Shown here: piece by piece, positions 43,306 through 63,269 of the stretch
Numbering within the stretch: position 1 is the first letter of the stretch
How the letters are laid out: each line of letters begins with the position of its first letter
Assembly: GCF_000802235.1 (NCBI RefSeq)
Contig: NZ_JTDL01000141.1
Span: 1 to 64,000, forward strand
Source of the DNA: Sinomonas humi
GTDB taxonomy: Bacteria > Actinomycetota > Actinomycetes > Actinomycetales > Micrococcaceae
DNA: 64,000 nucleotides
Direction: 5' to 3'
Notes under the pieces: generated by a model
The model's input: the letters and a program-made list of their open reading frames with translations, nothing else
Database searches by the model: none
Told to the model about the DNA's origin: nothing
Program-made: the position numbers and the translations under genes

Positions 43306-43462
43306 TGCTAAATCCCTACGTCGTTGTATCGGTCGAGCTGCGGATCGCCAAGGTTGGGAGGGCTTGCGCGGACCCTGGGAACAGTCGATGAAGAAACACA
43401 CACGCTGCCGCCGCCGCTGCCCCGGCGCGTCTAGATCAAGTCCTCTTCGGGACGATCAAAGG

Positions 43463-43838: not shown

Positions 43839-45077
43839 TCAGCGGGTCTGGGCGACCGGTTCCTGCACGGTTGCAGAGAGCTTGACGGCGGGGTCCGAGG
43901 CGAGGTCTGGGTCGAGCGCGGCGCCGGCCGCGACGAGCTTCTTCCCGGAGATGAAGTCAGCGAGCGAGCCGACGGTGTCGATGGCGGCCAGACGCCCCTC
44001 CCGCAGGTACAGGACGGCGAACTTCCCGCTCGCCGGGTCGCCCCTGAGCACGATCTCGTCCTCTGGAAGGCGCAGCCCGGCCGTCTGCAGGCGTACTCCG
44101 TGCTGGACCGTCCAGAACCAGGGGACCTCGTGCCTTGCACTCGGCTGTCCCATGATGCTGTTGGCGGCATTGACGGCCTGAGCCTGGGCGCTCTGGATGC
44201 TTTCGAGGCGCCGGTCGATGCCGTGCTGCTGGTCGACCAGCCTGGTCGCGTCGCCGGCGGCGTAGACATCGGGGTCGGAGGTCCGGGAGTCGAGGTCGAC
44301 CAGGATGCCGTCGCGCACCGCCAGCCCGGCGGCCGCGGCGAGCTCCTGACGGGGAACCACCCCGATGCCGGCGACGACCACGTCCGCCGGATAGGTCGCG
44401 CCGTCGGCCGTGATGACCTCCTCGACGCGGCCCTCGCCGCGGAGCTCTGTCACGGCGGCCCCGAAGACGAACCTCGTCCCGTGCGAGGCGTGGACCTGCT
44501 CGAAGAAACGGGAGACCGGCTCGGACGTCACCCGGCTCATGACCCTGTCCATGAATTCGAGCACGGTCGTATCGCAGCCAAGGGCGGCGGCTGCGGCGGC
44601 CACCTCGAGGCCGATGTAGCCGGCCCCGACGATCACCACGCGCGCACCGGGATGCAGGGCTGTACGCAGCGCTCGGGCGTCGTCGCGGGTCTTGAGCAGG
44701 TGCACCCCCTCGAGGTCCCCACCCGGGACCTTGAGGGAGCGGGCGCTCGAGCCGGGGGCCAGGATCAGGCGGGCGTACTCGAGTGCGGTGCCGTCGGCCA
44801 GCACGACCCGGCGTGCAGAGCGGTCGATCGCTGCCACTGATCCGGTGACCCGCTCGATGCCCTTATCCGCGAAGTACTGCTCCTTTCGCAGTGGCGCGAC
44901 GTCCTCGCCCGCCCCCGCCTTGAGGAACTCCTTGCTCAGCGGAGGACGCTCGTAGGTGTCGCCGGCCTGCTCCTCGACGATTAGGATCCGGCCCGGCCAC
45001 TCCAGCTCGTGCAGCCGCACCGCGGCCTGGACCCCGGCGTGGCCGGCTCCGACGATGACAATCGCTTCTTCGGACAT
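43839..45077 (-). CDS. Ferredoxin reductase (putidaredoxin/rhodocoxin-reductase type)
   Basis: A 412-residue FAD enzyme that passes electrons from NAD(P)H to a ferredoxin. IVIVGAGHAGVQAAVRLHEL (6-25) binds FAD, YERPPLSKEFLKAGAG is the reductase signature, VVIVGAGYIGLEVAAAAAAL binds the nicotinamide cofactor, and SDPDVYAAGDATRL is the second FAD segment. GIERVTGSVAAIDRSARRVV follows the usual order. Together with the ferredoxin and P450 it forms a class I bacterial P450 chain. Only eight bases separate it from the FprB-like gene upstream. Confidence 0.93.
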   Translation of the reverse strand: MSEEAIVIVGAGHAGVQAAVRLHELEWPGRILIVEEQAGDTYERPPLSKEFLKAGAGEDVAPLRKEQYFADKGIERVTGSVAAIDRSARRVVLADGTALEYARLILAPGSSARSLKVPGGDLEGVHLLKTRDDARALRTALHPGARVVIVGAGYIGLEVAAAAAALGCDTTVLEFMDRVMSRVTSEPVSRFFEQVHASHGTRFVFGAAVTELRGEGRVEEVITADGATYPADVVVAGIGVVPRQELAAAAGLAVRDGILVDLDSRTSDPDVYAAGDATRLVDQQHGIDRRLESIQSAQAQAVNAANSIMGQPSARHEVPWFWTVQHGVRLQTAGLRLPEDEIVLRGDPASGKFAVLYLREGRLAAIDTVGSLADFISGKKLVAAGAALDPDLASDPAVKLSATVQEPVAQTR

Positions 45078-45084
45078 TTCCCCT

Positions 45085-46764
45085 TCACTTCCCTCTGAGG
45101 CTTGTTGGAAGTGCTCCCTGCTCGCGGCCGGCCGTCAGGCCGATCGATATGAGGTGGGCTTGGTCGACGATCTTCACCCTGGGCCGTTGAACTCTCGTTC
45201 CCGCTTGGATCTCGTAGTCGTCGATAGCCTGAGCCCCTACGTCGTTGAAGGATCGATCGAGCCTTCCGACGAGATCGTCAGGGTCGTTCGTAGCACTCAG
45301 TCGGCCGTGTTCGAAGTCCTCGACGATCGCGGCGACGGTCGCGTTCGCGCAAGCCTTGTTAGCGCCGATGCCTCCCGTGGAGCCGCGCTTGATCCAGCCG
45401 GTGGCGTAGACGCCCGCGACCGTTCCGCCGCGTTCTGGATCGATCACGCGCCCGCCGTCATTGGGTATGATCCCCGCGTCGTCATCGTAAGGGACCCCGT
45501 CAACAGCTGAACCGCGGAATCCCACGGCTCGGAGCACGAGCCCGCAGTCGATCGTTGCCTCCGTACCCCGCGAGACGACCCGCACGCCCGTGACAGCGTT
45601 CTCACCGAGGATGAGTGTCGGAGTGGCGCCGAATTTGAAGACGATCCTCCGAGGGTCACCAGGGGGTGTCCCTTTGCTGGCGATCTCACCGAGCAGAGCC
45701 AGCTTCTGGTCCTGGTAGTAGCGCTCAAGCTCATCGTTCGTGACCGCTGTGTTGGCCGATTCGAGATCCGAAGGATCCACCACCAGAGCAACCGAGGTCG
45801 AACTCATCAGCCCGAGGAGCTCCGGCGATGTGAAGGCTGCGTACTCAGGTCCGCGCCGAGCCACGAGGATGACCTCCCGGACCCGGGACCCCCGCAGCGC
45901 GTTGAGGGCGTGATCGGCTATGTCAGTCTCGGCTAGGTCGTCGGGATCAGTGGTCAGGATCCGTGCGACGTCGAGGGCGACGTTGCCGTTGCCGAGCACC
46001 ACGACCCGTTCGTGCGAGAGGTCGAAGGAGGCGTCGGCGAACTCCGGATGGCCGTTGAACCAGGCAACGAATTCTGCGGCTGACGCGCTGTTGTGCAGAT
46101 TCTCACCCGATAGGCCTGACGATCTGCCCTCTATTGCGCCCACCGCGTAGACCACGGCGTGGTATCGCTCGGCAAGCTCCTCGTGGGTGATGTCCCTGCC
46201 GACTTCGGTGTTGAAGAAAGTGCGGACGCCGGAACGGCGCCGTGTCGCCGTGAAATTGTCGAGGACCCGCTTCGTGGCAAGGTGGTCCGGAGCCACGCCG
46301 AAGCGCACCAGACCGCCCGGCGTGCACAGGCGCTCGAAGATGTCGACGCGTGCACGTACGTCGACGCGATCGAGCAGCGCTGCCGCGGTGTAGTGGCCGG
46401 CGGCGCCACCCCCGACGACGGCGACACGGAGTGGCTCGGCATCGGGGGCGGCGGGATGCTGTCCCGCAAGTGGATCCGCCCACTCGCTCTGGCGGTCCGC
46501 CGCCGAGCCCGTCGCAGTGTAATAGTCGGCGTTGAGCTTCAGATACTGCTCGTCGCGGGGGCCGAGCTCGGTGTCGGGGATGATCGCCCCGACGGGGCAG
46601 GCCGGGATGCACGCGCCGCAGTCGATGCAGACATCGGGATCGATGTAGAGCATCTCTGCTCTTTGATAGTCGGGCTCGTCGGGAGTCGGATGGATGCAGT
46701 CGACGGGGCAGACCGGCACGCAGGAGGCATCGTTGCAGCAGTTGGAGAGGATGAGGTGGGGCAT
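45085..46764 (-). CDS. Ferredoxin-NADP reductase fused to a 7Fe ferredoxin domain (FprB-like)
   Basis: A 559-residue protein. The first 75 residues are a bacterial 7Fe-type ferredoxin domain (CCNDASCVPVCPVDCIHP and DVCIDCGACIPACPVGAII) and the rest an adrenodoxin-reductase-like FAD/NADP domain (VAVVGGGAAGHYTAAALL; GGLVRFGVAPDHLATKRVLD; VVVLGNGNVALDVARILT; GVYATGWIKRGSTGGIGANK). This is the architecture of mycobacterial FprB. It could feed electrons to the P450 in parallel to the dedicated ferredoxin/reductase pair, or to another acceptor. It lies 33 bases downstream of the P450. Confidence 0.92.
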   Translation of the reverse strand: MPHLILSNCCNDASCVPVCPVDCIHPTPDEPDYQRAEMLYIDPDVCIDCGACIPACPVGAIIPDTELGPRDEQYLKLNADYYTATGSAADRQSEWADPLAGQHPAAPDAEPLRVAVVGGGAAGHYTAAALLDRVDVRARVDIFERLCTPGGLVRFGVAPDHLATKRVLDNFTATRRRSGVRTFFNTEVGRDITHEELAERYHAVVYAVGAIEGRSSGLSGENLHNSASAAEFVAWFNGHPEFADASFDLSHERVVVLGNGNVALDVARILTTDPDDLAETDIADHALNALRGSRVREVILVARRGPEYAAFTSPELLGLMSSTSVALVVDPSDLESANTAVTNDELERYYQDQKLALLGEIASKGTPPGDPRRIVFKFGATPTLILGENAVTGVRVVSRGTEATIDCGLVLRAVGFRGSAVDGVPYDDDAGIIPNDGGRVIDPERGGTVAGVYATGWIKRGSTGGIGANKACANATVAAIVEDFEHGRLSATNDPDDLVGRLDRSFNDVGAQAIDDYEIQAGTRVQRPRVKIVDQAHLISIGLTAGREQGALPTSLRGK

Positions 46765-48197: not shown

Positions 48198-49229
48198 ATG
48201 GATCCTCTTGACGACGCGGCGCTCCAGCCGGGGTTTGTGGGCGCTGATCCCGAGCACGACCGACTCGTCGGCCAGAAGAGCGGTCTCGTGTCTCTGCGGG
48301 GGCGCGACGCTGAGTTGGTCCGGCGGCAGACATCGGCGGCCTTCAGCGAGGTCGACATGCAATTCGCGGGTGTGAATGATCTGGACTTCCAGCTCGACCT
48401 CGCCCGCTCGTCGCGGCTGACCCTCGGCCGGATGGGGTACGGGGATGCGGCGACCGTCTTCGGACCCCCGATGGAGGACTGGTACCACATCAATGTCCCC
48501 ATGACGGGGGAGTCGCGCGCTGAACAGAACGGGCGGCGCGGCGCTCTGACAGCCGGTCGAGCTGCCATCATGTTCCGTCCTGGCGAGCCGCTCAAGGTGA
48601 CGATGAGTGCGAGATCTTGGCAGTACCACGTCAAGATTCCGAAGCGACTGCTCGAGGCACGGGCAGCTAAGATGGCCGGTTTGCCAACGGGTGAGCCCAT
48701 CGACTTCGACCTCACCTTCGATCTGACTGACGGCATGGGACCGACCCTGCTGTCGGCAGTCCGCTTCCTGTACGAGGAGTGCAGCCGTCCTCAAGGCCTA
48801 AGTGCCGTTCCTCTCGCATGCCAGGAGTTCGAATCAGCGTTCTTGACTCAGATCCTCATGACAGTACCCAGTCAGCTGATCAGGATTGTCGCCCGCCCGC
48901 CCGAACGAGTACGACGGTCCCGGGTACGAGACGTGTTCGAATACATCGATGCCAATGCCGACCGGGAGATCACGACTGCCGATCTCGCCCAGATCGCCGG
49001 GTGCAGCATTCGGTCACTGCAGGCCGAGTTCCGCGAGTCGGTGGGTATCAGTCCCACCGCCTACCTACGTGGAGTCCGCCTGGACCGCGTTCACGCCGAC
49101 CTTCTGGCGGGCGGTGCGGTCACCGCCGTCGCCGCAAAATGGGGCTTCTACCATTTTGGGCGGTTCGCGGGCCATTACCGCGAGCGGTTCGGGGTCACGC
49201 CATCGGAGACGGCCCGAGGCACGCGATAA
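48198..49229 (+). CDS. AraC-family transcriptional regulator (divergent from P450 operon)
   Basis: A 343-residue activator with an N-terminal AraC_binding_2-type ligand domain (about 50-200; HINVPMTGESRAEQNGRRGA) and C-terminal double helix-turn-helix (EITTADLAQIAGCSIRSLQA and FRESVGISPTAYLRGVRLDR, then VAAKWGFYHFGRFAGHYRER and FGVTPSETA). It is transcribed away from the P450 operon across a 200-base gap, the usual arrangement for the operon's activator. No clear AT-rich element of the A-K type is seen in that gap, so this operon seems to be under different control. Paralogue of the regulator at 56895. Confidence 0.9.
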   Translation: MDPLDDAALQPGFVGADPEHDRLVGQKSGLVSLRGRDAELVRRQTSAAFSEVDMQFAGVNDLDFQLDLARSSRLTLGRMGYGDAATVFGPPMEDWYHINVPMTGESRAEQNGRRGALTAGRAAIMFRPGEPLKVTMSARSWQYHVKIPKRLLEARAAKMAGLPTGEPIDFDLTFDLTDGMGPTLLSAVRFLYEECSRPQGLSAVPLACQEFESAFLTQILMTVPSQLIRIVARPPERVRRSRVRDVFEYIDANADREITTADLAQIAGCSIRSLQAEFRESVGISPTAYLRGVRLDRVHADLLAGGAVTAVAAKWGFYHFGRFAGHYRERFGVTPSETARGTR

Positions 49230-49242
49230 GGTCCTCGGGCGC

Positions 49243-50058
49243 TCAGCGCGCCGTCGTCGCCTGACTGTGCCGGCCTACGGTGACGGCCTTGTCAGCGTTG
49301 GCGAGTCCGACGACGCTCGCCGAGCCCAAGGTTCCCTGCCGGTCGAAAAGGAGTGCTGTTCCCGCGGAGATCCCGGCCTCGGCGGAACGGTGGTTCACCA
49401 CGACCCCGAGCCCGGGGCCTATCGGGAGGCGGGAAAGGGCGACGGAGACATCGGCGTTAATGTACTCGACGCCGCGGTCGCCCCAGTGCACGACGAGGCT
49501 TGTGAGGTCGCTCGTGCTCGCAACGCACTGGAAGGGCGTCGGTGGTTCTCCGTGCACGATCGTGAGCGGCTCCTGCCACACGGCCTTGGCGTGCTCGTTG
49601 TAGTGGTCGGCGGGCTCGGGCGTCCAAGCTCCCCCGTGGCTCTGATAGACGCGTCCCTCTTCGTCGGATCTCACACCAGCCGGGGGAGGATCTGGGTGCC
49701 CGTCGGCGGCCCAGAGCCGGCCCTCCGGATTCTCCGATAACGCGAGGAAGAGGACATGGGCGCGTGCCACGACGACACCGCCTTGGACCATCTCGCTGTC
49801 GACGAGCGTGAGCCTACGACCGCTGCGCACGACCGTAGCGCGCATGGTCGAGGCAGTCATGAGCGCGGGTCGGAAGAGCTCGAACGTGGCGCGCGCGGGC
49901 TGCCGGTCCTGGGCGGGGCAGGCCTGTTCAGCGGCCCGCGCGAGGAGGCCCGTGACGGCGGGGCCGCGCAGCTGTTTGGGGTGCCAGCCGCTCGATGCCG
50001 TCGGGAGAGGCTCGAAGACTCCGTCGTCGTGGCTGAAATAGCCCTCGGTCGCCCTCAT
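49243..50058 (-). CDS. Acyl-CoA thioesterase-like protein (TesB-type double hotdog)
   Basis: A 271-residue protein of the thioesterase-like superfamily related to TesB/acyl-CoA thioesterase II. An N-terminal hotdog has GPAVTGLLARAAEQACPAQD and ARATFELFRPALMTASTMRA (about 31-78); the C-terminal hotdog has DLTSLVVHWGDRGVEYINAD and GPGLGVVVNHRSAEAGISAG with the conserved D-x-x-S/T pattern, then GTALLFDRQGTLGSASVVGL. Both domains are complete. The ATG at 50056-50058 overlaps the SDR stop by four bases. It faces the AraC gene convergently (13 bases apart). Likely role is release of an acid from an acyl-CoA, substrate unknown. Confidence 0.75.
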   Translation of the reverse strand: MRATEGYFSHDDGVFEPLPTASSGWHPKQLRGPAVTGLLARAAEQACPAQDRQPARATFELFRPALMTASTMRATVVRSGRRLTLVDSEMVQGGVVVARAHVLFLALSENPEGRLWAADGHPDPPPAGVRSDEEGRVYQSHGGAWTPEPADHYNEHAKAVWQEPLTIVHGEPPTPFQCVASTSDLTSLVVHWGDRGVEYINADVSVALSRLPIGPGLGVVVNHRSAEAGISAGTALLFDRQGTLGSASVVGLANADKAVTVGRHSQATTAR

Positions 50059-50858
50059 GCGTTCGCCGCGTCGAAGATCTCGGTCGAGGAGTCGACGACG
50101 GCGCCGCCGCCGTCTGCCACCACGGTATGGCCCGTGACCATCGACGCATCCGACGATGTGAGGAACGCGCAGACGGCGGCGATTTCGGCGGGATCGGCGG
50201 GGCGTCGCAGCGGCACGCGCGCGGTCGCTGACTCGTAGGCCTCCTCGACGGTGATGCCGTCCCGCTGGGCGATGAACGCCATGCCGCCGTCGCCGAAGGG
50301 GGTGCGGATCCACCCCGGACTCACTCCATTGACTCGCACGCCTCGGGGGCCGTACTCGCGGGCTAGCCAGCGGACGATGCCGACGATGCCGGTCTTGGCA
50401 GCGGTGTAGCCTGCGGTGCCCGCTGGTCCGGAGAAGATTCCCGCCGAAGAGGAGATCAGGACGGCGGAGCCTCTGGACTCAATCAGACGGGGCATGGCTT
50501 CCGCGACGAGGTAGAAGGGTCCACTCAGGTTGATGTCGAGGTTGCGGAGCCAGGCCTCCTGGGTCTTCGGGCTTGTGGTCGAGGGGATCTGTGCTCCTTG
50601 GGCGGCGATGACGGCATCGAGGCCTCCGAGTTCTTTGGCTGCTTCTGCGACCACGTCGTGCAGTTCGCCGCGCACCGTCCCGTCCGCCGGAAGTGCGAGA
50701 CCGCCTACCTCCTCGGCCAAAGCGGCGAGGCCGGTGGCATTGATGTCTGTGAGCGCGACTCGCGCGCCGTCGGCGGAGAATCGACGGGCGACGGCGGTGC
50801 CGAGGCCCCCGGCTGCGCCGCTTATGAGGACTCGGGTAGGACGGCCAATCTGGATCAT
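50055..50858 (-). CDS. Short-chain dehydrogenase/reductase, alcohol-to-ketone type
   Basis: A 267-residue NAD(P)-dependent SDR: cofactor loop ISGAAGGLGTAVARRFSADG (11-30), acidic DINATGLAAL favouring NAD, AAQGAQIPSTT, catalytic Ser in LISSSAGIFSGPAGT and the YTAAKTG Tyr/Lys pair near 155. GVSPGWIRTPFGDGGMAFIA is the substrate-cap region. The ATG at 50856-50858 has no ribosome site; an A/T-rich -10-like element ends only six bases upstream, so the mRNA is probably leaderless. It is placed next to a P450 operon and the HyuAB/ligase operon and may oxidise the alcohol made by the P450 to a ketone (inference). Confidence 0.88.
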   Translation of the reverse strand: MIQIGRPTRVLISGAAGGLGTAVARRFSADGARVALTDINATGLAALAEEVGGLALPADGTVRGELHDVVAEAAKELGGLDAVIAAQGAQIPSTTSPKTQEAWLRNLDINLSGPFYLVAEAMPRLIESRGSAVLISSSAGIFSGPAGTAGYTAAKTGIVGIVRWLAREYGPRGVRVNGVSPGWIRTPFGDGGMAFIAQRDGITVEEAYESATARVPLRRPADPAEIAAVCAFLTSSDASMVTGHTVVADGGGAVVDSSTEIFDAANA

Positions 50859-50863
50859 GGATC

Positions 50864-50880
50864 TAATTTTATATATTTTT
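50864..50880 (-). promoter_or_regulatory. AT-rich promoter element (site J), probably driving a leaderless transcript
   Basis: Read toward the SDR: AAAAATATATAAAATTAG directly before ATCC-ATG. A -10 box at TATAAA would place the start of transcription at, or within a few bases of, the ATG. The 180 bases to the right also hold the unmarked promoter of the divergent zinc-ribbon/HyuAB operon. Confidence 0.5.
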
Positions 50881-51044
50881 CGAGCAACAGCCAAGGCTTA
50901 GACCTGATTCGTCGGTCAGGATCCGGAACTGCGCAAATCGGATGGGTGCAATGCGCCAGCTGGATAGTGACTCGGATCACAGGATCCTATCTTCGAATAG
51001 CGGCCATGGAGGCCGCGAAAAGAACGACGCCGGAGGTCCCCCCC

Positions 51045-51263
51045 ATGAGCCAGGACATCGCCACGAGCCCACCTCTTGCCCAAGATCGCGTCCCGGTCCA
51101 GGGCCTGTGCCCCCGGTGCGGATCAGCCGCCCTGGCCGCCTATCCCGTCTTTTCGGAAGGCGGCTGGTTCGACGTCGTGAAGTGCCAGGGGTGCCTTCAC
51201 TCGGTGAGCCGGGAGCGCGGACCGCTGCTCGGCGCCCTCCGCCTACTCGCGGACCAGATCTAG
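51045..51263 (+). CDS. Small zinc-ribbon protein, putative third subunit of the HyuAB-type enzyme
   Basis: A 72-residue protein with a C-P-R-C-G knuckle (Cys22, Cys25) and a second pair K-C-Q-G-C (Cys47, Cys50), the four ligands of a zinc ribbon, joined by a short beta hairpin (ALAAYPVFSEGGWFDVV). CGGAGG lies nine bases before the ATG. It ends 11 bases before the HyuA-type gene, so all are one operon. Acetone and acetophenone carboxylases have small zinc-containing subunits beside HyuA/HyuB-like subunits; this protein could be the equivalent, but direct sequence similarity cannot be tested here. Confidence 0.7.
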   Translation: MSQDIATSPPLAQDRVPVQGLCPRCGSAALAAYPVFSEGGWFDVVKCQGCLHSVSRERGPLLGALRLLADQI

Positions 51264-51274
51264 GAAGGGTCGCT

Positions 51275-53317
51275 ATGTTTGCAGTAGATGTGGGCGGCAC
51301 GTTCACGGACGTCGTCGCCGTCATAAATGGCCGGATCGAAACCGCGAAGGTCTCAACGAGCTACGCCGACACGGCCGCTCCGGTCCTCGAGGGGGCCGAG
51401 ATCCTCGGCGTCGCCGACGCACCCGTCTTCAATCATGCGAGCACTCACGGACTCAACGCCGTGATCACACGGAATCTCCCCAAGATCGGCTTCCTGACCA
51501 CCGATGGGCATCGCGACATCTTGGACATGGGGCGCGTATGGCGACCAGCCACGGCCATCTTGGACCCCTCATGGCGGCGCAGCTTCGGTGATGCCTCTCG
51601 GCCCCTGGTGCCCCGTTATCTGCGGCGCGGGATCGCGGAGCGTCTGCTCGCCGACGGCAGCGTGCTGTTTGAGCTCGATGAGGATCAGGCCCGCCAACAG
51701 CTAGAGGTGCTCGGCCGATGCAACGTCGAGGGCATAGCCGTCTGCCTTCTGAATGCCTACGTCAACCCGGACCATGAGATCAGGCTTCGCGAACTCGTGC
51801 ATGAGGTCCTCGGCGACGTCGCCTGCTCGATTTCGAGCGAGGTCTCTCCGCTGGCCAAGGAGTACGCCCGCGCCTCCACTACCGTCATCGACGCCTTCAT
51901 GAAGATCATCTACGGCGATTACACGCACCGGCTCGATCACGGGCTGAAGGGCCTCGGCTTCTCCGGCCAACTCAACTTCGCCGACTGCGCGGCCACTCTG
52001 GTCCCGGCCGACCGAGCCATGGAACAACCCTTCCGCATCGTGTTCTCGGGGCCGTCTGCCGGAACAGTGGCTTCGGCGCACTTCGGCAATCTCATTGGGG
52101 CCACGAACCTCCTCTGCGCAGACATCGGGGGCACCTCCTGCGACATCAGTGTCGTCGTGGATGGCAGCCCGTTCGTCAACACGAGTTTCGAGCTCGAGCA
52201 CGACCTCGTCGTCAACGCGCTCGCGAACGACATTACGGCCATCGGCGCAGGCGGCGGCAGCCTCGTCACCATCGGCCCAACGGGCGAGATCCAAGTCGGC
52301 CCGGGCAGCGCCGGCGCCGATCCCGGGCCGGCCTGCTACGGGCGTGGTGGCACGCAGCCGACGACGACGGACACGTGCCTACTCATCGGCATCATCGATG
52401 CGGAGTCCTTTGCCGGAGGAACCATCGAGCTCGACAGGGAGAAGGCGGTTGCCGCCTTCGAGGGGCTTGACTGTGACTTCTCCTTCCGCCAGCGTGTCCG
52501 CTACGCGTACGACATGGCGATCAACAACATTTCCGAAGGACTTCTCAACGTCGCGATCAAGAACGGAGTGGATCCTCGGGACTACACGCTCGTCGCCTAT
52601 GGCGCGGCCGGGCCGATGCTGCTGCCCGCAGTGCTCGATACGGTCCGTTGCAAGGAGGTGTTGATCCCGCCCTATCCGGGGCTCTTCTCCGCCCTCGGCC
52701 TTCTCGCCGCCGATCAGGTCTACACCGCCAACCGCAGCGCGTACACGATCCTGTCGCCCGAGGAGGCCTCTGGAATCGACCGTATCTTCGCCGAGATGGA
52801 GGCACAGCTCCGGGAACGGTTGGAGGGTGATGCGTCGGTCACCTTCGAGCGCAGCTTCGACGGACACCTCGTCGGGCAGAGCTGGGACACCCCCTTCGTC
52901 CCTGTACCGGACGGGACGATCGACGCCCTCGCCGTCGAGCAGATGATCGCGTCGTTCCATGACACCTACCAGGCCCGTTCTGGAAATCGGTTCGACCAGT
53001 TCCCGGTGCAGGGGGTGACTTTCCGCGTCCGCGCGGTGCAGGACACCGACAAGGTCGAGTACCCCGAACTGCCCGGCCGGGAAGACGACGCCGGTCCGGT
53101 TCCGACCCGGACCACGACGCTGTCGTATCTCGGTGCATTGGACGATCCTGACGAGGCAGGCCAGGCTGCCACCGTCTTCGACAGGGAGTCGCTGCGCCGG
53201 GGCGATGTCATCGAAGGACCGAGCATCATCGCCGAGAGGCTCTCGACAACCCATGTGGGTGAGGGGCAGCAGGCCATCGTGGGCCGCTACGGCGAGATCG
53301 TGATCAGGAAGAAGTGA
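51275..53317 (+). CDS. HyuA-type (hydantoinase A/oxoprolinase/ketone carboxylase) ATP-dependent subunit
   Basis: A 680-residue subunit with the ASKHA-type ATP fold of hydantoinase/oxoprolinase and of the ketone carboxylases AcxA and Apc. DVGGTFTDVVAVINGR (4-19) is the first phosphate loop, ITRNLPKIGFLTTDGHRDIL the HyuA N-domain mark, LLCADIGGTSCDISVVVDGS the second phosphate loop and AIGAGGGSLVTIGPTGEIQV the adenosine site, followed by GPGSAGADPGPACYGRGG. The start ATG at 51275 is set by this conserved beginning and by GGAAGGG. Family enzymes phosphorylate a carbonyl or amide using ATP. With the zinc-ribbon protein upstream and a CoA ligase downstream, carboxylation of a ketone fits better than hydantoin hydrolysis (inference). 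Confidence 0.88.
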   Translation: MFAVDVGGTFTDVVAVINGRIETAKVSTSYADTAAPVLEGAEILGVADAPVFNHASTHGLNAVITRNLPKIGFLTTDGHRDILDMGRVWRPATAILDPSWRRSFGDASRPLVPRYLRRGIAERLLADGSVLFELDEDQARQQLEVLGRCNVEGIAVCLLNAYVNPDHEIRLRELVHEVLGDVACSISSEVSPLAKEYARASTTVIDAFMKIIYGDYTHRLDHGLKGLGFSGQLNFADCAATLVPADRAMEQPFRIVFSGPSAGTVASAHFGNLIGATNLLCADIGGTSCDISVVVDGSPFVNTSFELEHDLVVNALANDITAIGAGGGSLVTIGPTGEIQVGPGSAGADPGPACYGRGGTQPTTTDTCLLIGIIDAESFAGGTIELDREKAVAAFEGLDCDFSFRQRVRYAYDMAINNISEGLLNVAIKNGVDPRDYTLVAYGAAGPMLLPAVLDTVRCKEVLIPPYPGLFSALGLLAADQVYTANRSAYTILSPEEASGIDRIFAEMEAQLRERLEGDASVTFERSFDGHLVGQSWDTPFVPVPDGTIDALAVEQMIASFHDTYQARSGNRFDQFPVQGVTFRVRAVQDTDKVEYPELPGREDDAGPVPTRTTTLSYLGALDDPDEAGQAATVFDRESLRRGDVIEGPSIIAERLSTTHVGEGQQAIVGRYGEIVIRKK

Positions 53318-53325
53318 GGTCAGTC

Positions 53326-55266
53326 ATGAGCACTGTCGAGATTTCCGGGGTCGCCCGGCTCCGGGACATTTCCGAGGATGAGTTCCATGCGGCCTACGGG
53401 GCTGATCGGTTCACATCCTCGGTCCTCCGAAGCAGGCTGCAATACGTTGTCGAGCACATGTCGACGGCCTTCATGCGGGAGGCATTCTCGCCCATCATCC
53501 GCGACTGGTACGACTTTGCCTGTACGATCAGCGGCCCGGCGGAGCAGGACTATCCGATGGCGGTTGTAAGCAACAGCCTCACCCCCTTCCTCGGGACCAT
53601 GGCCGACGCTTTGCGCAACACCGTCGTCGAGTACGGTGTGGACCGACTCCAGCCTGGCGACGTGTTGATCTGCAACGATCCCTATCGGGGAGGGCGGCAC
53701 GTGAACGACGTGCTGTTCATCCGGCCGGTCTTCGTGGACGGACGGATCGTCAGCTTCGTCAACATGTGTGCCCACCAGCTCGACATGGGCGGCACGGTCC
53801 CGGGCGGGTTCTCGGCGACGAAGCAAAATGTGTTCGAAAACGGCTTGGTCATCCCGCCAATGCTGCTGTGGTCCAAGGACGAGCCGGTGCGGTCGACGTT
53901 CAGCCTCATTTTCGACAACACACGCTGGGGAGCCCTGCTCCTGCCGGACTTCAAGAGCATGCTCGAGCAGCTCAAGCTGGGTGAGAGGCTCATCCTCGAG
54001 AACATCGCACGATACGGACTCGAGGCCTATCTCGGAACCCTCGTCTATGCGACCGACACATCTGCGGAGCGGATGCGGGACGCGATCGCACTGATCCCAG
54101 ACGGCGACTACGAGGGCAGCGCCCTCATCGATGCCGACGGCACGGATGCCTCCGTCGAATACCGCGTGCACGTCACCGTACGCAAGCGCGGCAGCTCCGT
54201 CGAGGTCGATCTCTCCGGCACCTCGGCACAGGCCCGCACGAGCATCAACGCCGGCGTGCTTGACGCGAAGACAGCCGTCGGCGTCGCGCTCACCATGATG
54301 CTCGACCCTAAGGTCCCCTTCACCTCCGGCACGTGGCGCAGCATCGACCTCGTCGCCCCGCCAGGCTCGCTCGTCACCGCCCTGCCGCCGGACGGCCCGA
54401 CGATGATGTTCTGGGAGAGCTCGGGAGCACTCATAGCCGCCATCTTCGAGGCCCTTAATCCCGTGCTCGGCGAACGCGGGGTCGGCGGCGACTACGGCTC
54501 GACGAACACCCACAATTCCCACGGCCTCCGTGCGGACGGCACCCTCTGGACGAGCGCGACCCAGGCGGGAGGCGAACATGGACCCTGGGGCGCAACGCGG
54601 CACGGCGACGGGGACAGCTACACCGTGCTCTACAACCTCAACAATCTCGACCCGGCCACAGAGACGATCGAGCACGACTCGCCCGTCGTCATGCTCCGCA
54701 AAGGTCATGCCATTGACACGGGCGGTCCGGGCACGCACAGGGGAGGCGCCGCGAACGTCCGCGACACGCTCTGGCTCACCGACGCCAGCCATTGGCTCTC
54801 GCCATTCAGGACAAAGGAGCCAAGCGGGGTAGGAGCGAACGGAGGCCGACCCGGGCCGAATGGCGCAATGTGGTTCTTCCCCCCTCGAGACGACGGCTCT
54901 GCCCCCTCCGGGCTCGTCGGCTTCTCCGACGAGGAATACGCTGCAAGCGAGCCCATTGCGGGAATGCTCAATATTCAGACCAAGAAGCTCGATCCCCAGG
55001 GCGTCTACCACCATTTCGCCAGTCGTCCTGTGTGGAAGACGAGCCCGAATACGGTACTGAGGGCCATGACCAACGGCGGCGGCGGATGGGGAAACCCATT
55101 CGAGCGGGAGCCAGCGAAAGTGCTGCGCGATGTCCGCGACGAGTATGTGAGCGTTGAAGGGGCGGCGCGGGACTATGGAGTTGTAGTCGTTGGCGACCCC
55201 GCCTTGGACCCCGAGGGACTGCGCGTCGACGAGCATGCAACCGCTGCGCTGAGAAAGGGGCGGTGA
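53326..55266 (+). CDS. HyuB-type (hydantoinase B/ketone carboxylase) subunit
   Basis: A 646-residue hydantoinase_B family subunit, partner of the HyuA-type protein. VLRSRLQYVVEHMSTAFMRE opens the domain, GDVLICNDPYRGGRHVNDVL (about 104-123) and VFVDGRIVSFVNMCAHQLDM hold the conserved metal-site residues (Asp, His), and later GGGGWGNPFEREPAKVLRDV near the C-terminus is the family's closing motif. ATG at 53326 after GAGGTCAGTC is used; a GTG at 53314 overlapping the HyuA stop is possible. It is longer than typical HyuB (about 520-580), with extra residues mainly around DASVEYRVHVTVRKRGSSVE. It overlaps the ligase start by four bases. Confidence 0.88.
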   Translation: MSTVEISGVARLRDISEDEFHAAYGADRFTSSVLRSRLQYVVEHMSTAFMREAFSPIIRDWYDFACTISGPAEQDYPMAVVSNSLTPFLGTMADALRNTVVEYGVDRLQPGDVLICNDPYRGGRHVNDVLFIRPVFVDGRIVSFVNMCAHQLDMGGTVPGGFSATKQNVFENGLVIPPMLLWSKDEPVRSTFSLIFDNTRWGALLLPDFKSMLEQLKLGERLILENIARYGLEAYLGTLVYATDTSAERMRDAIALIPDGDYEGSALIDADGTDASVEYRVHVTVRKRGSSVEVDLSGTSAQARTSINAGVLDAKTAVGVALTMMLDPKVPFTSGTWRSIDLVAPPGSLVTALPPDGPTMMFWESSGALIAAIFEALNPVLGERGVGGDYGSTNTHNSHGLRADGTLWTSATQAGGEHGPWGATRHGDGDSYTVLYNLNNLDPATETIEHDSPVVMLRKGHAIDTGGPGTHRGGAANVRDTLWLTDASHWLSPFRTKEPSGVGANGGRPGPNGAMWFFPPRDDGSAPSGLVGFSDEEYAASEPIAGMLNIQTKKLDPQGVYHHFASRPVWKTSPNTVLRAMTNGGGGWGNPFEREPAKVLRDVRDEYVSVEGAARDYGVVVVGDPALDPEGLRVDEHATAALRKGR

Positions 55267-56831
55267 CTGTGGGCATCAGCATGTCGTGGGTGTCCGATTC
55301 GATTGCGGGTCAAGCTCCTTCGGTGGCCCCCGACCGGGCGGCCGTCTCGATCGCGGACCAGCCGCCGCTCACTTGGAGGGAGTTCCGCGAGCGCGAAATT
55401 CTCTTCGCCTCGGCCCTGCAGCGCGCCGGCGTCCAGCCTGGAGACCGAGTAGGAATGCTTTTGAAGAATTCCGTGGACTATATCGTCCTGGTCTTCGCGA
55501 TCGCCCGCGTCGGCGGGGTTGCCGTCCGCCTCAACTGGAGGCTCATGCCCAGAGAGCTGAAATTCATCCTCGAAGACTCCGGCACGAGTCTGCTCTTCAT
55601 AGACCACGACCTCGTGGACAAGGTCGAGCCCATCAGGGACGGTGTTCCGGTGCGAAAGTTTGTCGTGCGCGGCGATCCCGAAGTCGCCGCAGACTGGGCC
55701 GAGCCGCTCGAGGACTTCCTGGACGGCGAACTGCGCACCGACTTCCCCGAACTGGACATGGACGCGCCGGCGACGCTCATGTATACGTCGGGTACGACGG
55801 GCCTGCCCAAGGGGGCGATCTGGACTCACGGCAACAATCTGTGGTTCAGCACGATCCAAGCGCTCCGGTGGAAGTTCGATGCATCCACCGTCGCCGTGAC
55901 GGCCGGCCCCCTCTTCCACGCGGGCGGGTGGGAAGCCCTCCTCCTCGCCGCCATGGTCAACCACGGTACTGCGATCACCTATTCGTCGGGAGCATTCGAC
56001 CTCCTCGAATACCTCGCGGCCTGCCGCATTCAAGAGGCGACAGACATCCTGCTCTACTCGTTCATGGTCCCGGAATTCATTCGGCTCCCGAACTGCGAGG
56101 AGCTTCTCCCGTCGACCCTTCGACGGATCGTGTGCGGCGGGGACACCCTCATGCCGTGGGTCTACGAGGAATTCGCCCGGAGGCTCCCGCACATCGAGCT
56201 GGTCCAGGTCTATGGCCTGACTGAGGGAGGGGCGATCACGTGCTGCCTCGATGGTGCGGACAGTGACAGGGCAGGTTCGGTTGGCCGCACGATGCCGTTC
56301 ACCGAGGTGAAGGTTCTCGATCCTGAGGGAAATCTCGTCAGTCCGGGGGTCGCTGGCGAGCTCTACGTGCGCAGTCCAGCCGTGAGCCCGGGCTACTGGA
56401 ACCGGCCGGACGCGAATGCCGAGACCTTCATCGACGGATGGTGCCGCACGGGCGATCTCGCGAGCATCGATGCCGCGGGATTTATCACCCTCGGCGGCCG
56501 CGCGAAGGACATGATCCGCAGCGGTGGCGAGAACGTCTACCCCGCCGAGATCGAGGCGGTACTTGCGACGGCGCCGGGCGTCGCAGACGCTGCCGTGGTT
56601 GCTGTGCCAGATGCTAGGTGGCACGAGGTTGGCTGCGCAGTCCTTGTCCCGATCCATGGCAACACGATCGACATCGCGGCGGTCCGGTCCTACTGCCTAG
56701 AGCACTTGGCCAAGTACAAGGTGCCGCGCTACTTCGTTGTCGAAGGCGAGTTACCTAGGACGCCCTCCGGCAAGGTGAAGAAGTTCGAGCTGAGGGACCG
56801 TTGGAGAGCTCTGGGTGCGGCGGCGTCCTGA
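55263..56831 (+). CDS. AMP-forming acyl-CoA ligase of the HyuAB operon
   Basis: A 522-residue fatty-acyl/aryl-CoA ligase. ATP loop ATLMYTSGTTGLPKGAIWTH (about 167-186), LVQVYGLTEGGAITCC (A5), DGWCRTGDLASIDAAGFITL (A7), GGRAKDMIRSGGENVYPAEI (A8 hinge) and the catalytic C-terminal Lys in ELPRTPSGKVKKFELRDRW are all present. GTG start at 55263 overlaps the HyuB stop (GTGA). A ligase behind a HyuAB/zinc-ribbon set mirrors acetophenone carboxylase followed by benzoylacetate-CoA ligase in anaerobic ethylbenzene degraders; by analogy it would convert a beta-keto acid to its CoA ester. That reading is inference from gene order. Confidence 0.88.
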   Translation: MTVGISMSWVSDSIAGQAPSVAPDRAAVSIADQPPLTWREFREREILFASALQRAGVQPGDRVGMLLKNSVDYIVLVFAIARVGGVAVRLNWRLMPRELKFILEDSGTSLLFIDHDLVDKVEPIRDGVPVRKFVVRGDPEVAADWAEPLEDFLDGELRTDFPELDMDAPATLMYTSGTTGLPKGAIWTHGNNLWFSTIQALRWKFDASTVAVTAGPLFHAGGWEALLLAAMVNHGTAITYSSGAFDLLEYLAACRIQEATDILLYSFMVPEFIRLPNCEELLPSTLRRIVCGGDTLMPWVYEEFARRLPHIELVQVYGLTEGGAITCCLDGADSDRAGSVGRTMPFTEVKVLDPEGNLVSPGVAGELYVRSPAVSPGYWNRPDANAETFIDGWCRTGDLASIDAAGFITLGGRAKDMIRSGGENVYPAEIEAVLATAPGVADAAVVAVPDARWHEVGCAVLVPIHGNTIDIAAVRSYCLEHLAKYKVPRYFVVEGELPRTPSGKVKKFELRDRWRALGAAAS

Positions 56832-56894: not shown

Positions 56895-57884
56895 TCAACG
56901 GGATGCGCCAGCGCGCCACCCCGCGGTCTGGGACGGCAGCTGCCCGAACCTCGCGCGGTACTGCTGGGCGAACCGTCCCGGGTGGAAGAACCCCCATCGC
57001 ATCGCGACGTCGGTTACCGAGGCGTTGGCCCCAAGGAGAAGTTCCTCATGAACCCGGTCGAGTCGGGCTCCACATAGATAGGCCGTCGGGGTCATGCCGA
57101 CAGCCTCTTGGAATCCGAGCTGGAGCGAGCGAAGGCTCATCCCGACTTGCGCGGCGAGCTGTGCTGTCGTCAGGGGAGCCGATGGGTCCTCATCGATGAT
57201 CGCGAGTGCCTCACGGATCTTGGCCGGCCGTCCAGCGGAGGCTTCGCCGTGGAGGATTCGACTGAGCTGGCTTGGGACGACGAAGAGGAGCTGCGTCATC
57301 AAGGCCGCCTCAAGTTCTTGGCATGCGGCGGGGATGGCGGCGATCCCTCCGGGGCGGATCAGCTCGGCGTAGACGAAAGCCGCCGTCGCGAGGAGGGACT
57401 GGGCGGCCCCGGAGCGCAGGTCGAAGGTCAGGTCGAAGTCGATCGGCTGGATGGGCTGGCCCGAGAGCCTGGCGGCATACGCCTCAAGCTGCTCCTTGCG
57501 GAGCCGGATGACGTATTGCCGCTGATCGGCGCTCCAAGTAACGGAGAGCGGGCCCGAAGGGAGAAACGCCACCCCGGATTCGCCAGCACTCACCGTCCGA
57601 CGCCGACCGTGCTGGCTCGCCGTGCTCACGCCAGTCAGCGGCAGATTCACGTGATAGCAGGAGCGCATGGGCGGGGCATCGATGGAGATCTGCGCGCCGT
57701 AGGTCAGGAGACCGACGGACAGTCGGGAGGACATGGTCAGATCGAGCTTGAAGTCGAGGGACCTGCTGCTTTGCACAGCGAGATGGTGGTCAGCGAAGTT
57801 GAGGGCGACCTGCTCCCGCGCGGCGTCGAGATCGCCCGTCTCGAAAGACAAACGCTGCGCTGCAGGTGAGCGCATCGAGTCCAT
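56895..57884 (-). CDS. AraC-family transcriptional regulator (convergent with HyuAB operon)
   Basis: A 329-residue paralogue of the regulator at 48198: same layout with ligand domain (HVNLPLTGVSTASQHGRRRT; FDLTFDLRSGAAQSLL) and C-terminal double helix-turn-helix (PLTTAQLAAQVGMSLRSLQL, VTDVAMRWGFFHPGRFAQQY, FGQLPSQTA). It is transcribed toward the HyuAB-ligase operon and divergently from the aldehyde dehydrogenase at 58022, which it most likely controls. The close likeness of both regulators suggests that they sense related compounds, such as substrate and ketone intermediate. Confidence 0.9.
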   Translation of the reverse strand: MDSMRSPAAQRLSFETGDLDAAREQVALNFADHHLAVQSSRSLDFKLDLTMSSRLSVGLLTYGAQISIDAPPMRSCYHVNLPLTGVSTASQHGRRRTVSAGESGVAFLPSGPLSVTWSADQRQYVIRLRKEQLEAYAARLSGQPIQPIDFDLTFDLRSGAAQSLLATAAFVYAELIRPGGIAAIPAACQELEAALMTQLLFVVPSQLSRILHGEASAGRPAKIREALAIIDEDPSAPLTTAQLAAQVGMSLRSLQLGFQEAVGMTPTAYLCGARLDRVHEELLLGANASVTDVAMRWGFFHPGRFAQQYRARFGQLPSQTAGWRAGASR

Positions 57885-57971: not shown

Positions 57972-58021
57972 CCGTCAGGCCGGAGTTCTTGGTGGGCAGG
58001 ACAAGCGAAGGAGACCACAGC

Positions 58022-59506
58022 ATGCAGACCGCTGTCGCTCAGACCCTCGGGTCCCGACTCGGCGAGGTCTATCTCGCCGGCACATGGGTGCCTGGCCAGG
58101 GCGGGACCGAGACGGTCGTCTCGCCGTCGACCGGAGAGGTTGTCGCGGAGGTCACGCTTCCGAGCATCGACCAAGGCCACGCTGCCGTGGCCGCCGCGCA
58201 CGAACAAGGCCGGACCGGCTGGGGACAGACCTCACCAGACGAACGTATCGAGGCCATCCGCCGGATGTGCGACCTCTTCGAATCCCGTCTCGGCGACATG
58301 GGCCTCCTGTGGGCTATCGAGGCAGGTATGCCCATCCGGTACAGCCGAACATTGCACAAGTTCGGGGCCGTGGGTGCTTGGAATGCGTCTATCGAGGCCG
58401 CGGCCGACGCGTTGCGGGAGGAGCGGCGGCGGGGGCCGATGGGCGACGTGCTCGTGCGTCGCGAGCCGGCCGGCGTGGTCGTCGGCATCCTCGCGTACAA
58501 CGGTCCACTCGTCACCATGGCCACTAAGATCATCCCTGCCCTGCTCGCGGGATGCCCCGTCATCGTCAAGGCAGCCTCGGAGTCGCACCTCATCATGCGC
58601 CTCGTCGCGGAATGCGCCCGCGAGGCCGGGCTCCCGCCCGGCTCGTTGAGCATCTTCTCGGGAGCGACTGACGTCGGTCGGGCGCTAACCCGCGATCCGC
58701 GTGTGGACCTCGTGTCACTGACCGGTGGCCAGTCGACTGCCCGGGACATCATCGAGGCAACCGCACCTCGCTTCGCGCGCACCCACCTCGAGCTGGGCGG
58801 CAAGTCGGCCGCCGTCATCCTTCCGGATGCAGACATCGATCACGCGCTGCGCAGCCTCACTCCCGGTGCGACGTCGGGAACCGGCCAAGTGTGCGCTCTC
58901 CTGTCACGCGTGCTCGTCCCGGACCAGCGGCACGATGAGATCGTCGACGCCATGTGCGCGGCGTGGGGCAAACTCGTCATTGGCAATCCGCTCGACCCTC
59001 AGACCACCATCGGGCCGTTGGCCAATCGTGCGGCGCTTGAACGCACTCAGGCATTCCTTGAGCGGGCGCTGGACGAGGGAGGCAAGGTGGTCTTCGGAGG
59101 CGGCGCCCCTGAGGGCCGCGAGGGGAGCCTGTACTTCGAGCCGACGATCGTCACGAACGTCGCCCGGGATTCCCACCTTGCCCGGAACGAGGTCTTCGGC
59201 CCGATCACCGCCGTCATGGCGTATTCAGATCTCGAGGACGCGATTTCGCTCGTGAACGACACAGAGTTGGGGCTCGCGGCGAGTGTCTACACGCAGGACC
59301 GGGAGGCCGCGCTCGAATGCGCGAGCCGGATTAGGGCTGGGTCGGTGGCGCTGAATGGTTTCGGCCCGGATGTCACCGCGCCATGGGGTGGGCGTGCCAG
59401 CTCAGGATGGGGCCGCGAAGGTGGGGCTGAGGGCATTCAGGAGTTCACAGAGCTTAAGCAGATCCTGATCGGTCCGGGCCTTCACGGGGGGACCGCCACT
59501 CATTGA
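58022..59506 (+). CDS. NAD-dependent aldehyde dehydrogenase (second)
   Basis: A 494-residue aldehyde dehydrogenase, clearly diverged from the one at 41824. GVVVGILAYNGPLVTMATKI opens the cofactor domain (note YNGP where W-N-x-P is usual), SLTGGQSTARDIIEATAPRF replaces the common FTGS loop, THLELGGKSAAVILPDADID has the base Glu, and GATSGTGQVCALLSRVLVPD the catalytic Cys. ATG at 58022 with GAAGGAG upstream. Divergent from an AraC regulator and followed after 43 bases by the EthD-like protein. It may act on an aldehyde intermediate or on the same substrate range under different control. Confidence 0.92.
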   Translation: MQTAVAQTLGSRLGEVYLAGTWVPGQGGTETVVSPSTGEVVAEVTLPSIDQGHAAVAAAHEQGRTGWGQTSPDERIEAIRRMCDLFESRLGDMGLLWAIEAGMPIRYSRTLHKFGAVGAWNASIEAAADALREERRRGPMGDVLVRREPAGVVVGILAYNGPLVTMATKIIPALLAGCPVIVKAASESHLIMRLVAECAREAGLPPGSLSIFSGATDVGRALTRDPRVDLVSLTGGQSTARDIIEATAPRFARTHLELGGKSAAVILPDADIDHALRSLTPGATSGTGQVCALLSRVLVPDQRHDEIVDAMCAAWGKLVIGNPLDPQTTIGPLANRAALERTQAFLERALDEGGKVVFGGGAPEGREGSLYFEPTIVTNVARDSHLARNEVFGPITAVMAYSDLEDAISLVNDTELGLAASVYTQDREAALECASRIRAGSVALNGFGPDVTAPWGGRASSGWGREGGAEGIQEFTELKQILIGPGLHGGTATH

Positions 59507-59549: not shown

Positions 59550-60284
59550 ATGACCAACGACACCAACACCGCCGCGACGGGGGAGCGCTATCTATTCCTC
59601 GCCTGGTCCACGTACACGAGCGACCGCGGGACGTTCGACGTCTGGTACGACAAAGAGCACATCCCGCAGGTCATGGATACGACAGGCATGGTGGGCGCGC
59701 AGCGCTTCGTCCTGGACGACACGAAGCCGCTCCCCGGCGTCAAGACGATCGACTGGGGCCACTTGGCGCTGTACGAGCTCAATCGGGAGCCTGATGCGTT
59801 CCGCGAAGAGGTCAAGCGGATGCTCATCTCAGCCGACATGGTGCTGCCCGACTTCATGGTGCAACCGTTCAAGGCGCTGTTCCTCAAGCCTGTGAGCAAG
59901 ATCCATTACGGGGAGTCGTGGGACCCAGACCCAGATCGCCTCGACGACCGGCACCTCTTCTTCGCATGGAGCACCCACACGACTGATTGGGACACCTACA
60001 ACGCGTGGTACGACGAGGTGCACATTCCGCAGATTCTGTCCGTCCCAGGGATGCTCCGCGCGCAGCGCTTCCTCCCGGCGGAGACGAAGCCACTGCCCGG
60101 AGTCGAGGTCCCGAATGAGGGGCACCTAGCTCTTTACGAGATGGACGGGAGCCCCTCGCTCTTCCGGGAAGAGTGCAAGCGCATGCTGATGTCGGGGGAA
60201 ATGGTGCTGCCGGATTTCATGGTGCAGCCTTTCGGCGCCACCTTCATGGCTCCGGCGAGCCCGTGGTGGCCTGCCCAAGACTAA
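59550..60284 (+). CDS. Tandem-duplicated EthD-like (dimeric alpha/beta-barrel) protein
   Basis: A 244-residue protein of two repeats, residues about 13-116 and 136-239, which I align by hand without gaps at 62 identical of 104 positions. Each repeat starts with LF-x-AWST, then W-Y-D-x-x-HIPQ, GM-x-x-AQRF, TKPLPGV, GHLALYE, FREE-x-KRML and MVLPDFMVQPF. The small beta-strand/helix pattern with a W-Y-x-x-x-H centre resembles EthD/ferredoxin-like dimeric barrel proteins found beside P450 and ring-degrading genes, where one domain per subunit is usual. AGGAAAGCT precedes the ATG. Function unknown; a fused dimer could bind an unstable intermediate or haem. Confidence 0.7.
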   Translation: MTNDTNTAATGERYLFLAWSTYTSDRGTFDVWYDKEHIPQVMDTTGMVGAQRFVLDDTKPLPGVKTIDWGHLALYELNREPDAFREEVKRMLISADMVLPDFMVQPFKALFLKPVSKIHYGESWDPDPDRLDDRHLFFAWSTHTTDWDTYNAWYDEVHIPQILSVPGMLRAQRFLPAETKPLPGVEVPNEGHLALYEMDGSPSLFREECKRMLMSGEMVLPDFMVQPFGATFMAPASPWWPAQD

Positions 60285-60697: not shown

Positions 60698-60860
60698 GGA
60701 AGTGCCGACCACCTAGTTGGGCCAATCTTGATGACTCCCGATGACCCCCGCCTCCTGTTGCCCGTGTCACACCTGCTTGTTTCCGCCGCCTGCCTCGGGG
60801 AGTCTTGCTTCACCGTTTCCCAGCGCTTATGAGGCATGCCCCAAAGAAGGAGCACCTTTC

Positions 60861-63269
<2,409 letters not shown>

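Follow-up and report, generated by a model that had tools for sequence, protein, structure and literature searches.

What reaction is carried out by a HyuA/HyuB-type enzyme pair that is accompanied by a small four-cysteine protein and lies beside a cytochrome P450? This question is raised by a gene cluster of the actinobacterium Sinomonas humi (RefSeq assembly GCF_000802235.1), located in positions 1 to 64,000 of contig NZ_JTDL01000141.1; we refer to this whole stretch of 64,000 nucleotides as the window. The small protein, HyuA and HyuB (in the following the trio) are encoded together with an AMP-forming acyl-CoA ligase, divergently from a short-chain dehydrogenase/reductase (SDR). The original prediction, made from the sequence of the window, was an aerobic route in which the P450 and the SDR produce a ketone, the trio carboxylates it in the manner of acetophenone carboxylase (Apc), and the ligase activates the product. 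The genes, the motifs, the metal site and the co-conservation are found in the sequence; each reaction and the order of the reactions are predicted. We regard the route as plausible and put its probability at roughly 45%.

The first gene of the set (51045-51263, plus strand) encodes the 72-residue protein with cysteines C22-C25-C47-C50, a candidate zinc-ribbon-like small subunit in a γ-like position 5' of HyuA. It is followed on the same strand by the predicted ATP-binding (ASKHA) α subunit HyuA of 680 residues (51275-53317; PF05378, PF01968 and PF19278 in addition to NCBIfam and PDB matches), the predicted metal-binding β subunit HyuB of 646 residues (53326-55266; PF02538 with 405.8 bits; putative ligands D63, H125, D128 and H150) and, as the last gene, the acyl-CoA ligase of 522 residues (55263-56831; Pfam and NCBIfam matches). 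The small gene and HyuA are separated by 11 bp, HyuA and HyuB by 8 bp (a 4-bp overlap if HyuB starts at the alternative GTG at 53314), and the ligase gene overlaps HyuB by 4 bp. The four genes form one operon with all frames intact. The divergent SDR alcohol dehydrogenase (50055-50858, minus strand) is 57-67% identical to SDRs in related clusters. The gene set of the original prediction, i.e. the P450 with its redox proteins, the SDR and the divergent operon, is indeed present with intact frames. The interval given for it, 50055-56831, holds the operon and the SDR, but the P450 (46798-48048), the ferredoxin/ferredoxin reductase (Fdx/FNR) fusion (45085-46764) and the dioxygenase-type ferredoxin-NAD reductase (43839-45077, assigned by domain matches), all on the minus strand, lie just outside it, and the spacing described as overlaps of 0-11 bases ranges from 4-base overlaps to an 11-base gap.

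One genome per species (84,980 species) was scanned with short peptide patterns of the window HyuA as seeds, which restricts the scan to close relatives. It gave 54 loci, 52 of them with a HyuA 49-76% identical to that of the window and two, both Rokubacterial, with 34-35%. A homologue of the small protein lies directly 5' of HyuA in all 52 clade loci, and none was found in the two Rokubacterial ones. Ten loci, nine of Nocardia and one of Gordonia asplenii (L004, L006, L013, L015, L016, L017, L030, L045, L047 and L049), carry a second, distant trio (HyuA 33-35%) within a few kb of the first one, with its own small protein placed 3' of HyuB. The same placement is seen in a paralogous cluster on contig C28 of the S. 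humi genome (L065; HyuA 55%, HyuB 50%, small protein 46%), which holds the only other HyuB match in this genome together with an SDR (67%), an aldehyde dehydrogenase (ALDH, 55%) and a ligase (49%). The small partner is therefore constant, whereas its position is not. When 396 genomes of the phylum were searched with a small-protein profile, scoring up to 14 candidates per genome, it was found in 4 places in 3 genomes, each adjoining HyuA/HyuB. Judged by this conservation, the small protein, HyuA and HyuB form one unit. A ribose-type ABC transporter also accompanies the C28 paralogue, as does a SnoaL-like protein; together they hint at a substrate of polar nature.

The trio is accessory. At E ≤ 1e-120 the window HyuA matches 2 of 98 genomes, namely its own and one from the same family; the 14 other genomes of the genus gave no match. 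The trio in the genome of the same family (G770, HyuA 59%) has other neighbours, namely acyl-CoA dehydrogenase-like, flavin reductase-like, iron alcohol dehydrogenase (ADH) and catechol dioxygenase genes. Among the remaining loci, the HyuA match of Burkholderia stagnalis (L055), perhaps a truncated copy, spans residues 1-211 only, although the small protein there seems intact, and the trio of a metagenome-assembled genome (MAG) labelled Klebsiella pneumoniae (L028, label doubtful) is nearly identical to that of a gammaproteobacterial MAG (L027).

The sequence motifs of the two large subunits are well preserved. HyuA trees were built from stop-free matches spanning at least about 560 query residues, and the HyuB alignment from matches of at least 430 residues. 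Across the 66 clade rows of HyuA the phosphate-1 motif DVGGTFTD varies at one Thr only (Ser in 2 rows), the phosphate-2 motif DxGGT shows no variation, and the adenosine motif GxxPGP retains its first Gly in 57 rows, the window included. D63, H125, D128 and H150 are kept in 74 of 74 HyuB rows, the gate ligand always being Asp63 and not Glu as Glu89 of acetone carboxylase (Acx). By the phosphate motifs of HyuA and the D/H/D/H metal site of HyuB the trio is placed in the hydantoinase/ketone carboxylase superfamily. The HyuB model (pLDDT 87) gave TM-scores to the query of 0.77-0.80 for N-methylhydantoinase, Acx, Apc and the caprolactamase subunit CapB alike, with the best E-value for N-methylhydantoinase, so that the structure-based comparison called for in the original prediction leaves HyuB about equally near to all four. 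In comparison with six short hydantoinases (Hyds) devoid of the small protein, the clade HyuBs are extended at the N-terminus and carry an insertion of 34 residues (526-559), to which the small protein might dock; two other HyuBs of such ribbon-less Hyds (L070 and L073) are long too.

The small protein itself has a clade core, YPV.SEGGWF.VVK, and its four cysteines are present in 49 of the 52 focal proteins and in 10 of 10 from the second Nocardia/Gordonia set. All four are missing in L029, L035 and L040 and in the Rhodococcus plasmid copies L057 and L059, where the YPVLSEGGW core is kept. Since these five proteins lack the cysteines but retain the core, a catalytic role of the zinc was rejected, and the zinc looks structural at most. 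L029, L035 and L040 cluster in the HyuA tree, with L057 and L059 in the same wider group. An AlphaFold2 model of the small protein (pLDDT 86) gave no match in the PDB at E ≤ 0.001 using Foldseek; it is nearest to RNA-polymerase zinc-ribbon subunits, which are the top matches, with the VdcD structure 7ae5_b at rank 10 (E 1.3) and Apc γ (5l9w_C) below the RNA-polymerase ribbons at rank 35 (E 4.5). At the sequence level 16 of 31 small proteins resemble VdcD with E-values of up to 1 (1.4e-5 for the best, 0.035 over residues 22-53 for the window member), and 20 of the 31 match ECs_2282, a different zinc-binding family; the VdcD likeness may be a generic zinc-ribbon likeness. PF08882 is absent among the matches listed for the 31 proteins at E up to 1, and a PF08882 search of the S. 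humi genome gave no match, though positive controls likewise gave none.

After pointing at the trio as a unit, its neighbours may be considered. The five nearest open reading frames (ORFs) per locus (four for L050) were picked by a codon-composition score, and 134 of 149 such ORFs around 27 trio loci, leaving out L012, L057 and L065, were scanned. They include 13 AraC regulators, 12 ALDHs, 9 CoA ligases, 8 SDRs, 4 zinc ADHs, 3 CoA-transferases and 3 MmgE/PrpD proteins. No amine-handling family is found among the 25 commonest of the 89 neighbour families, although a rare one could escape. As a control we used 13 plasmid loci of ribbon-less Hyds, identified by product name and covered together with 4 to 8.5 kb of flanking sequence (the unannotated L069 and L070 were excluded); they are called ribbon-less because tblastn with the small protein matched 3 of 72,556 plasmid records and none of the 13, five of which were checked additionally. 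There is no CoA ligase product around these 13 annotated loci, and at least 7 of them (L068, L071, L074, L078, L080, L081 and L082) carry amino-acid, amide or amine genes, e.g. for racemases, aminotransferases, dihydropyrimidinase or arginase; an SDR is named in two (L075 and L077) and an ALDH in one (L077). The contrast between the two sets is indicative, as they differ in replicon type and naming method. The window carries an accessory catabolic cluster, probably for a nitrogen-free compound.

The cluster extends beyond the operon and the SDR. Downstream lie an AraC-family regulator (56895-57884, minus strand), whose ORF cluster is present in 27 related loci, an ALDH (57989-59506, plus strand) and a 244-residue EthD-like protein (59550-60284, plus strand), the latter two with homologues near the trio in several loci and, for the EthD-like protein, several genera. 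The homologue of the EthD-like protein in L011 has two similar halves, and its EthD match scores 23.0 bits against a cut-off of 22. On the other side, next to the P450, are a second AraC-family regulator (48198-49229, plus strand) and, further out, an ALDH (41824-43401, minus strand). Homologues of the EthD-like gene, the ALDH, the ligase and the SDR occur all together in 9 of the 52 trio loci (L003-L009, L012 and L033). In Saccharopolyspora ipomoeae (L012) the order is P450 (72% identical), Fdx/FNR fusion (59% over 558 residues), trio, EthD-like protein, ALDH, ligase, SDR and AraC regulator, with P450 to SDR within 13 kb, while Pseudonocardia endophytica (L021) has the trio with a homologue of the AraC regulator at 48198 (58%) adjoining a P450 (66%), and, near the P450, a homologue of the ALDH at 41824 (66%). 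Judged by these two arrangements, the cluster in the window seems to be a rearranged form of one found elsewhere, the P450 being part of it in some cases at least. The cluster is more than a chance assembly, because its genes match curated families, and the trio, ligase, SDR, ALDH, AraC regulator and EthD-like gene recur together elsewhere.

According to the proposed route, the P450 with its own electron chain would hydroxylate the substrate and the SDR would oxidise the product to a ketone. HyuA would use ATP to phosphorylate the ketone enol and/or bicarbonate, the activated pieces would move on to HyuB and be joined through a C-C bond at its metal site, and the small protein would clamp HyuB as Apc-γ does in Apc. 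The ligase would then convert the β-keto acid to its CoA ester for thiolysis. We favour this carboxylation route because the small gene is present in 52 of 52 loci in an Apc-like gene order, because Hyds have no γ, and because the metal and phosphate motifs are kept; carbon and CoA genes surround the trios, no CoA ligase is named around the 13 annotated ribbon-less Hyds, and in L012 the genes lie in a single run. The link between P450 and trio in two other genera points in the same direction.

A number of observations weigh against this route, and the original prediction is supported in part. In phmmer searches of the PDB both large subunits score best against N-methylhydantoinase (HyuA 322 bits, HyuB 166), followed by caprolactamase (235 and 153), Apc (220 and 88) and Acx (175 and 53). 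A HyuA tree of 79 rows, made with a quick method, unites in a single clade the 66 rows that have a small-protein partner (support 97). A careful tree of 25 rows does the same for its 13 rows of this kind (100/97) and places them on the hydantoinase side; here Apc and Acx pair (100/99, both on long branches) and are joined by CapA (97/94), and N-methylhydantoinase groups with two plasmid Hyds. The trio HyuAs thus appear as a clade of their own that lies on the side of the hydantoinases and is distinct from Apc and Acx. A clear grouping with hydantoinases or oxoprolinases, named beforehand as speaking against carboxylation, is found by half: the side of the tree is shared, but the clade is separate, and a constraint uniting it with Apc and Acx costs 11.3 log units and is not rejected (p-AU 0.149). 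The Apc pocket is reported to be lined by a Gln344-Thr345 pair (PMC5214803). HyuA residue 319, which aligns to the pocket Gln, is acidic (D/E) in 64 of the 66 clade rows, a state shared by all 9 ribbon-less Hyd rows and by N-methylhydantoinase; the equivalent is Q in CapA and Apc and A in Acx. There is no α' or ε subunit and no second ASKHA subunit adjoining the trio genes, no sequence homology of the small protein to Apc or Acx γ was detectable and no sequence match to 5l9w was found, and the gene order is not fixed among paralogues. An orthologous P450 occurs near only 2 of 52 trios within flanks of up to 8 kb, and the carboxylation route does not account for the aldehyde dehydrogenases. The trio is also present in a Desulfobacteraceae MAG (L050), so it is not tied to O2 or confined to aerobes. 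Finally, the absence of a Baeyer-Villiger monooxygenase (BVMO), used as an argument in the original prediction, holds for the 40 window ORFs scanned with Pfam, which are part of the window ORFs, but fails at the genome level: contig C85 encodes a 624-residue flavin monooxygenase-like BVMO candidate (L092:542-2416) with FRGHTFHTSRWD, which we take to be the BVMO fingerprint.

The alternative that survives best, although unlikely in our judgement, is a lactamase, where the P450 hydroxylates an N-heterocycle next to the nitrogen, the SDR converts the product to a lactam, HyuA/HyuB open the lactam with ATP, and ALDH and ligase take on the resulting semialdehyde and diacid. The hydantoinase-side phylogeny, the acidic residue 319 and the best PDB matches, N-methylhydantoinase and caprolactamase, would all fit, the ALDHs would receive a role, and a P450-dehydrogenase-caprolactam scheme has been proposed for Gulosibacter (PMC9477822). 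On the other hand, neither an aminotransferase nor an amine oxidase is among the annotated cluster genes, the commonest neighbour families of the 27 loci hold no amine-handling family, two-subunit Hyds work without the γ-like partner that the trio has, and the same source reports that Gulosibacter HyuAB expressed in E. coli failed to degrade caprolactam, although that HyuAB may or may not belong to the clade described here. Caprolactamase is described as hydrolytic yet bicarbonate-requiring (PMC8453981), and bicarbonate dependence alone would therefore be no proof of carboxylation.

Somewhat more unlikely is that the trio uses ATP to activate some other substrate, either a carbonyl or a CoA-bound compound, e.g. 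a lactone, a cyclic diketone or a hydroxyaromatic compound, in which case the ligase may act before the trio. The Apc and Hyd branches are described as diverse, with consensus motifs that could not tell substrates apart (PMC5214803), and the neighbours vary between EthD-like/ALDH/ligase/SDR sets, zinc ADH/ALDH in some loci, a nitronate monooxygenase in Rhodococcus GD02 and the ribose-type transporter of the C28 paralogue. That the P450 module and the trio are chance neighbours from separate pathways in a window packed with other catabolic genes, which is compatible with any reading of the trio and agrees with the few P450-trio pairs, we consider the least probable of the three, as the link is repeated in other genera (P450 and Fdx/FNR just upstream of the trio in L012, AraC-P450 and the homologue of the ALDH at 41824 in L021) and close P450 homologues are rare, with 1 of 394 class genomes, namely its own, at E ≤ 1e-100.

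Returning to the carboxylation route, the original prediction knew of no described aerobic pathway of this make-up. The exact set of P450, SDR, HyuAB and small zinc-ribbon protein was not recognised in the literature searched, which was mainly open-access and mostly at title or abstract level. Aerobic ketone carboxylation as such is known, however: acetone is carboxylated by Acx in Xanthobacter, termed an aerobic species (PMC10865871; also PMC7888143), and hydroxyacetophenones by the biotin-dependent HpeCBA, whose authors stated in 2022 that no other aerobic aromatic pathway with carboxylation was known to them (PMC9618137). The annotation of Rhodococcus ruber includes an acetophenone carboxylase cluster, which is termed anaerobic (PMC6498646). 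Taken further, the trio could represent a third class among the ketone carboxylases that use ATP but no biotin. In this wider proposal, which we hold to be doubtful, HyuA/HyuB of the hydantoinase branch would have acquired a mini zinc-ribbon γ separately from Apc and Acx, and transfer would have carried them into Actinomycetota, Burkholderiales, Gammaproteobacteria and Chloroflexota; the P450 to which they are coupled here would lead from an unactivated C-H to a β-keto acid in air. Should the trio carboxylate ketones, γ-assisted CO2 fixation may have had more than one origin within the superfamily, aerobes would be able to process P450-derived ketones by fixing CO2 instead of by Baeyer-Villiger cleavage, and a group of genes at present annotated as hydantoinase would carry the wrong name. 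Should it be a lactam hydrolase, its zinc ribbon would be a new hydrolase subunit.

Some further genes of the window should be mentioned. A thioesterase-like protein (4HBT_3; 49243-50058, minus strand) overlaps the SDR gene by 4 bp and has no homologue above 60 bits in related loci. Directly after the cluster lies a phosphoenolpyruvate (PEP) synthase gene (60741-63269), likewise with no homologue above 60 bits in related loci, which would fit growth on C2/C3 products; the product, similar to pyruvate phosphate dikinase, was considered as an HpeHI-type aryl kinase and rejected, since it passes the PEP synthase model with 1216 bits (cut-off 598). Positions 7514-31300 form a dense catabolic island with four family III CoA-transferases, two acyl-CoA dehydrogenases, a thiolase, an HpcH-type lyase, an electron-transfer flavoprotein pair, MmgE/PrpD and two AMP-ligase-like genes. 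The thiolase at 15021, cited in the original prediction, has its ATG exactly there, but at 35 kb distance among other acyl-CoA genes it is weak evidence for the route.

How does the trio compare with known systems? Published Hyds consist of two genes, hydAB, Acx of acxABC with γ 3' of β, and Apc of apcABCD(E) with α', γ, α and β in this order (Weidenweber et al. 2017, PMC5214803). With Apc of Aromatoleum aromaticum (ApcABCD(E), PDB 5l9w) the window shares homologous α and β subunits, a small four-cysteine protein, the Asp gate ligand, a CoA ligase in the operon and the gene order γ-α-β, which is the Apc order minus α'. It differs in that HyuA does not branch with ApcC in the tree (a union with Apc and Acx not being rejected), the small protein has 72 residues against 127 in the structure and cysteine pairs 21 against about 50 residues apart, and the NCBIfam equivalogs are missed by far (ApcC 228.4 of 1500 bits, ApcD 94.4 of 1500). 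Acx (AcxABC, PDB 5svb and 5m45) likewise has three components, homologous α and β subunits and a known aerobic host, but its γ gene lies 3' of β, as the small gene does in the C28 paralogue and the second Nocardia/Gordonia set but not in the window, its chains of 717-776 residues in the structures are longer, its gate ligand is Glu89 in place of HyuB Asp63, and PF08882 is not among the matches listed for the small proteins. N-methylhydantoinase (7hk5/9h03) shares the acidic residue 319 and gives the best scores for HyuA and HyuB, with caprolactamase CapAB (6yra) also among the best, although the CapA and CapB equivalogs are missed (356.2 and 187.5 of 1000 bits); both enzymes differ in having no small subunit, and the annotated ribbon-less Hyds have other neighbours. 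The Hpe/Acv systems of Rhodococcus GD02 and Sphingobium SYK-6 resemble the proposed route in carboxylating aryl ketones aerobically, followed in Hpe by CoA ligation, but begin with a kinase step and use the biotin-dependent HpeCBA, which is not homologous to the Apc-type carboxylase; an identity of the trio with the Hpe/Acv acetovanillone system was therefore rejected, although GD02 carries a trio too, on plasmid pGD02.2.1 (L057). A γ-like gene distinguishes the trio from Hyd, its placement in front from Acx and the lack of α' from Apc, so that it falls outside all three published gene sets. We take it to be a variant of the hydantoinase/ketone-carboxylase superfamily, which would act like a ketone carboxylase without belonging to the Apc or Acx families.

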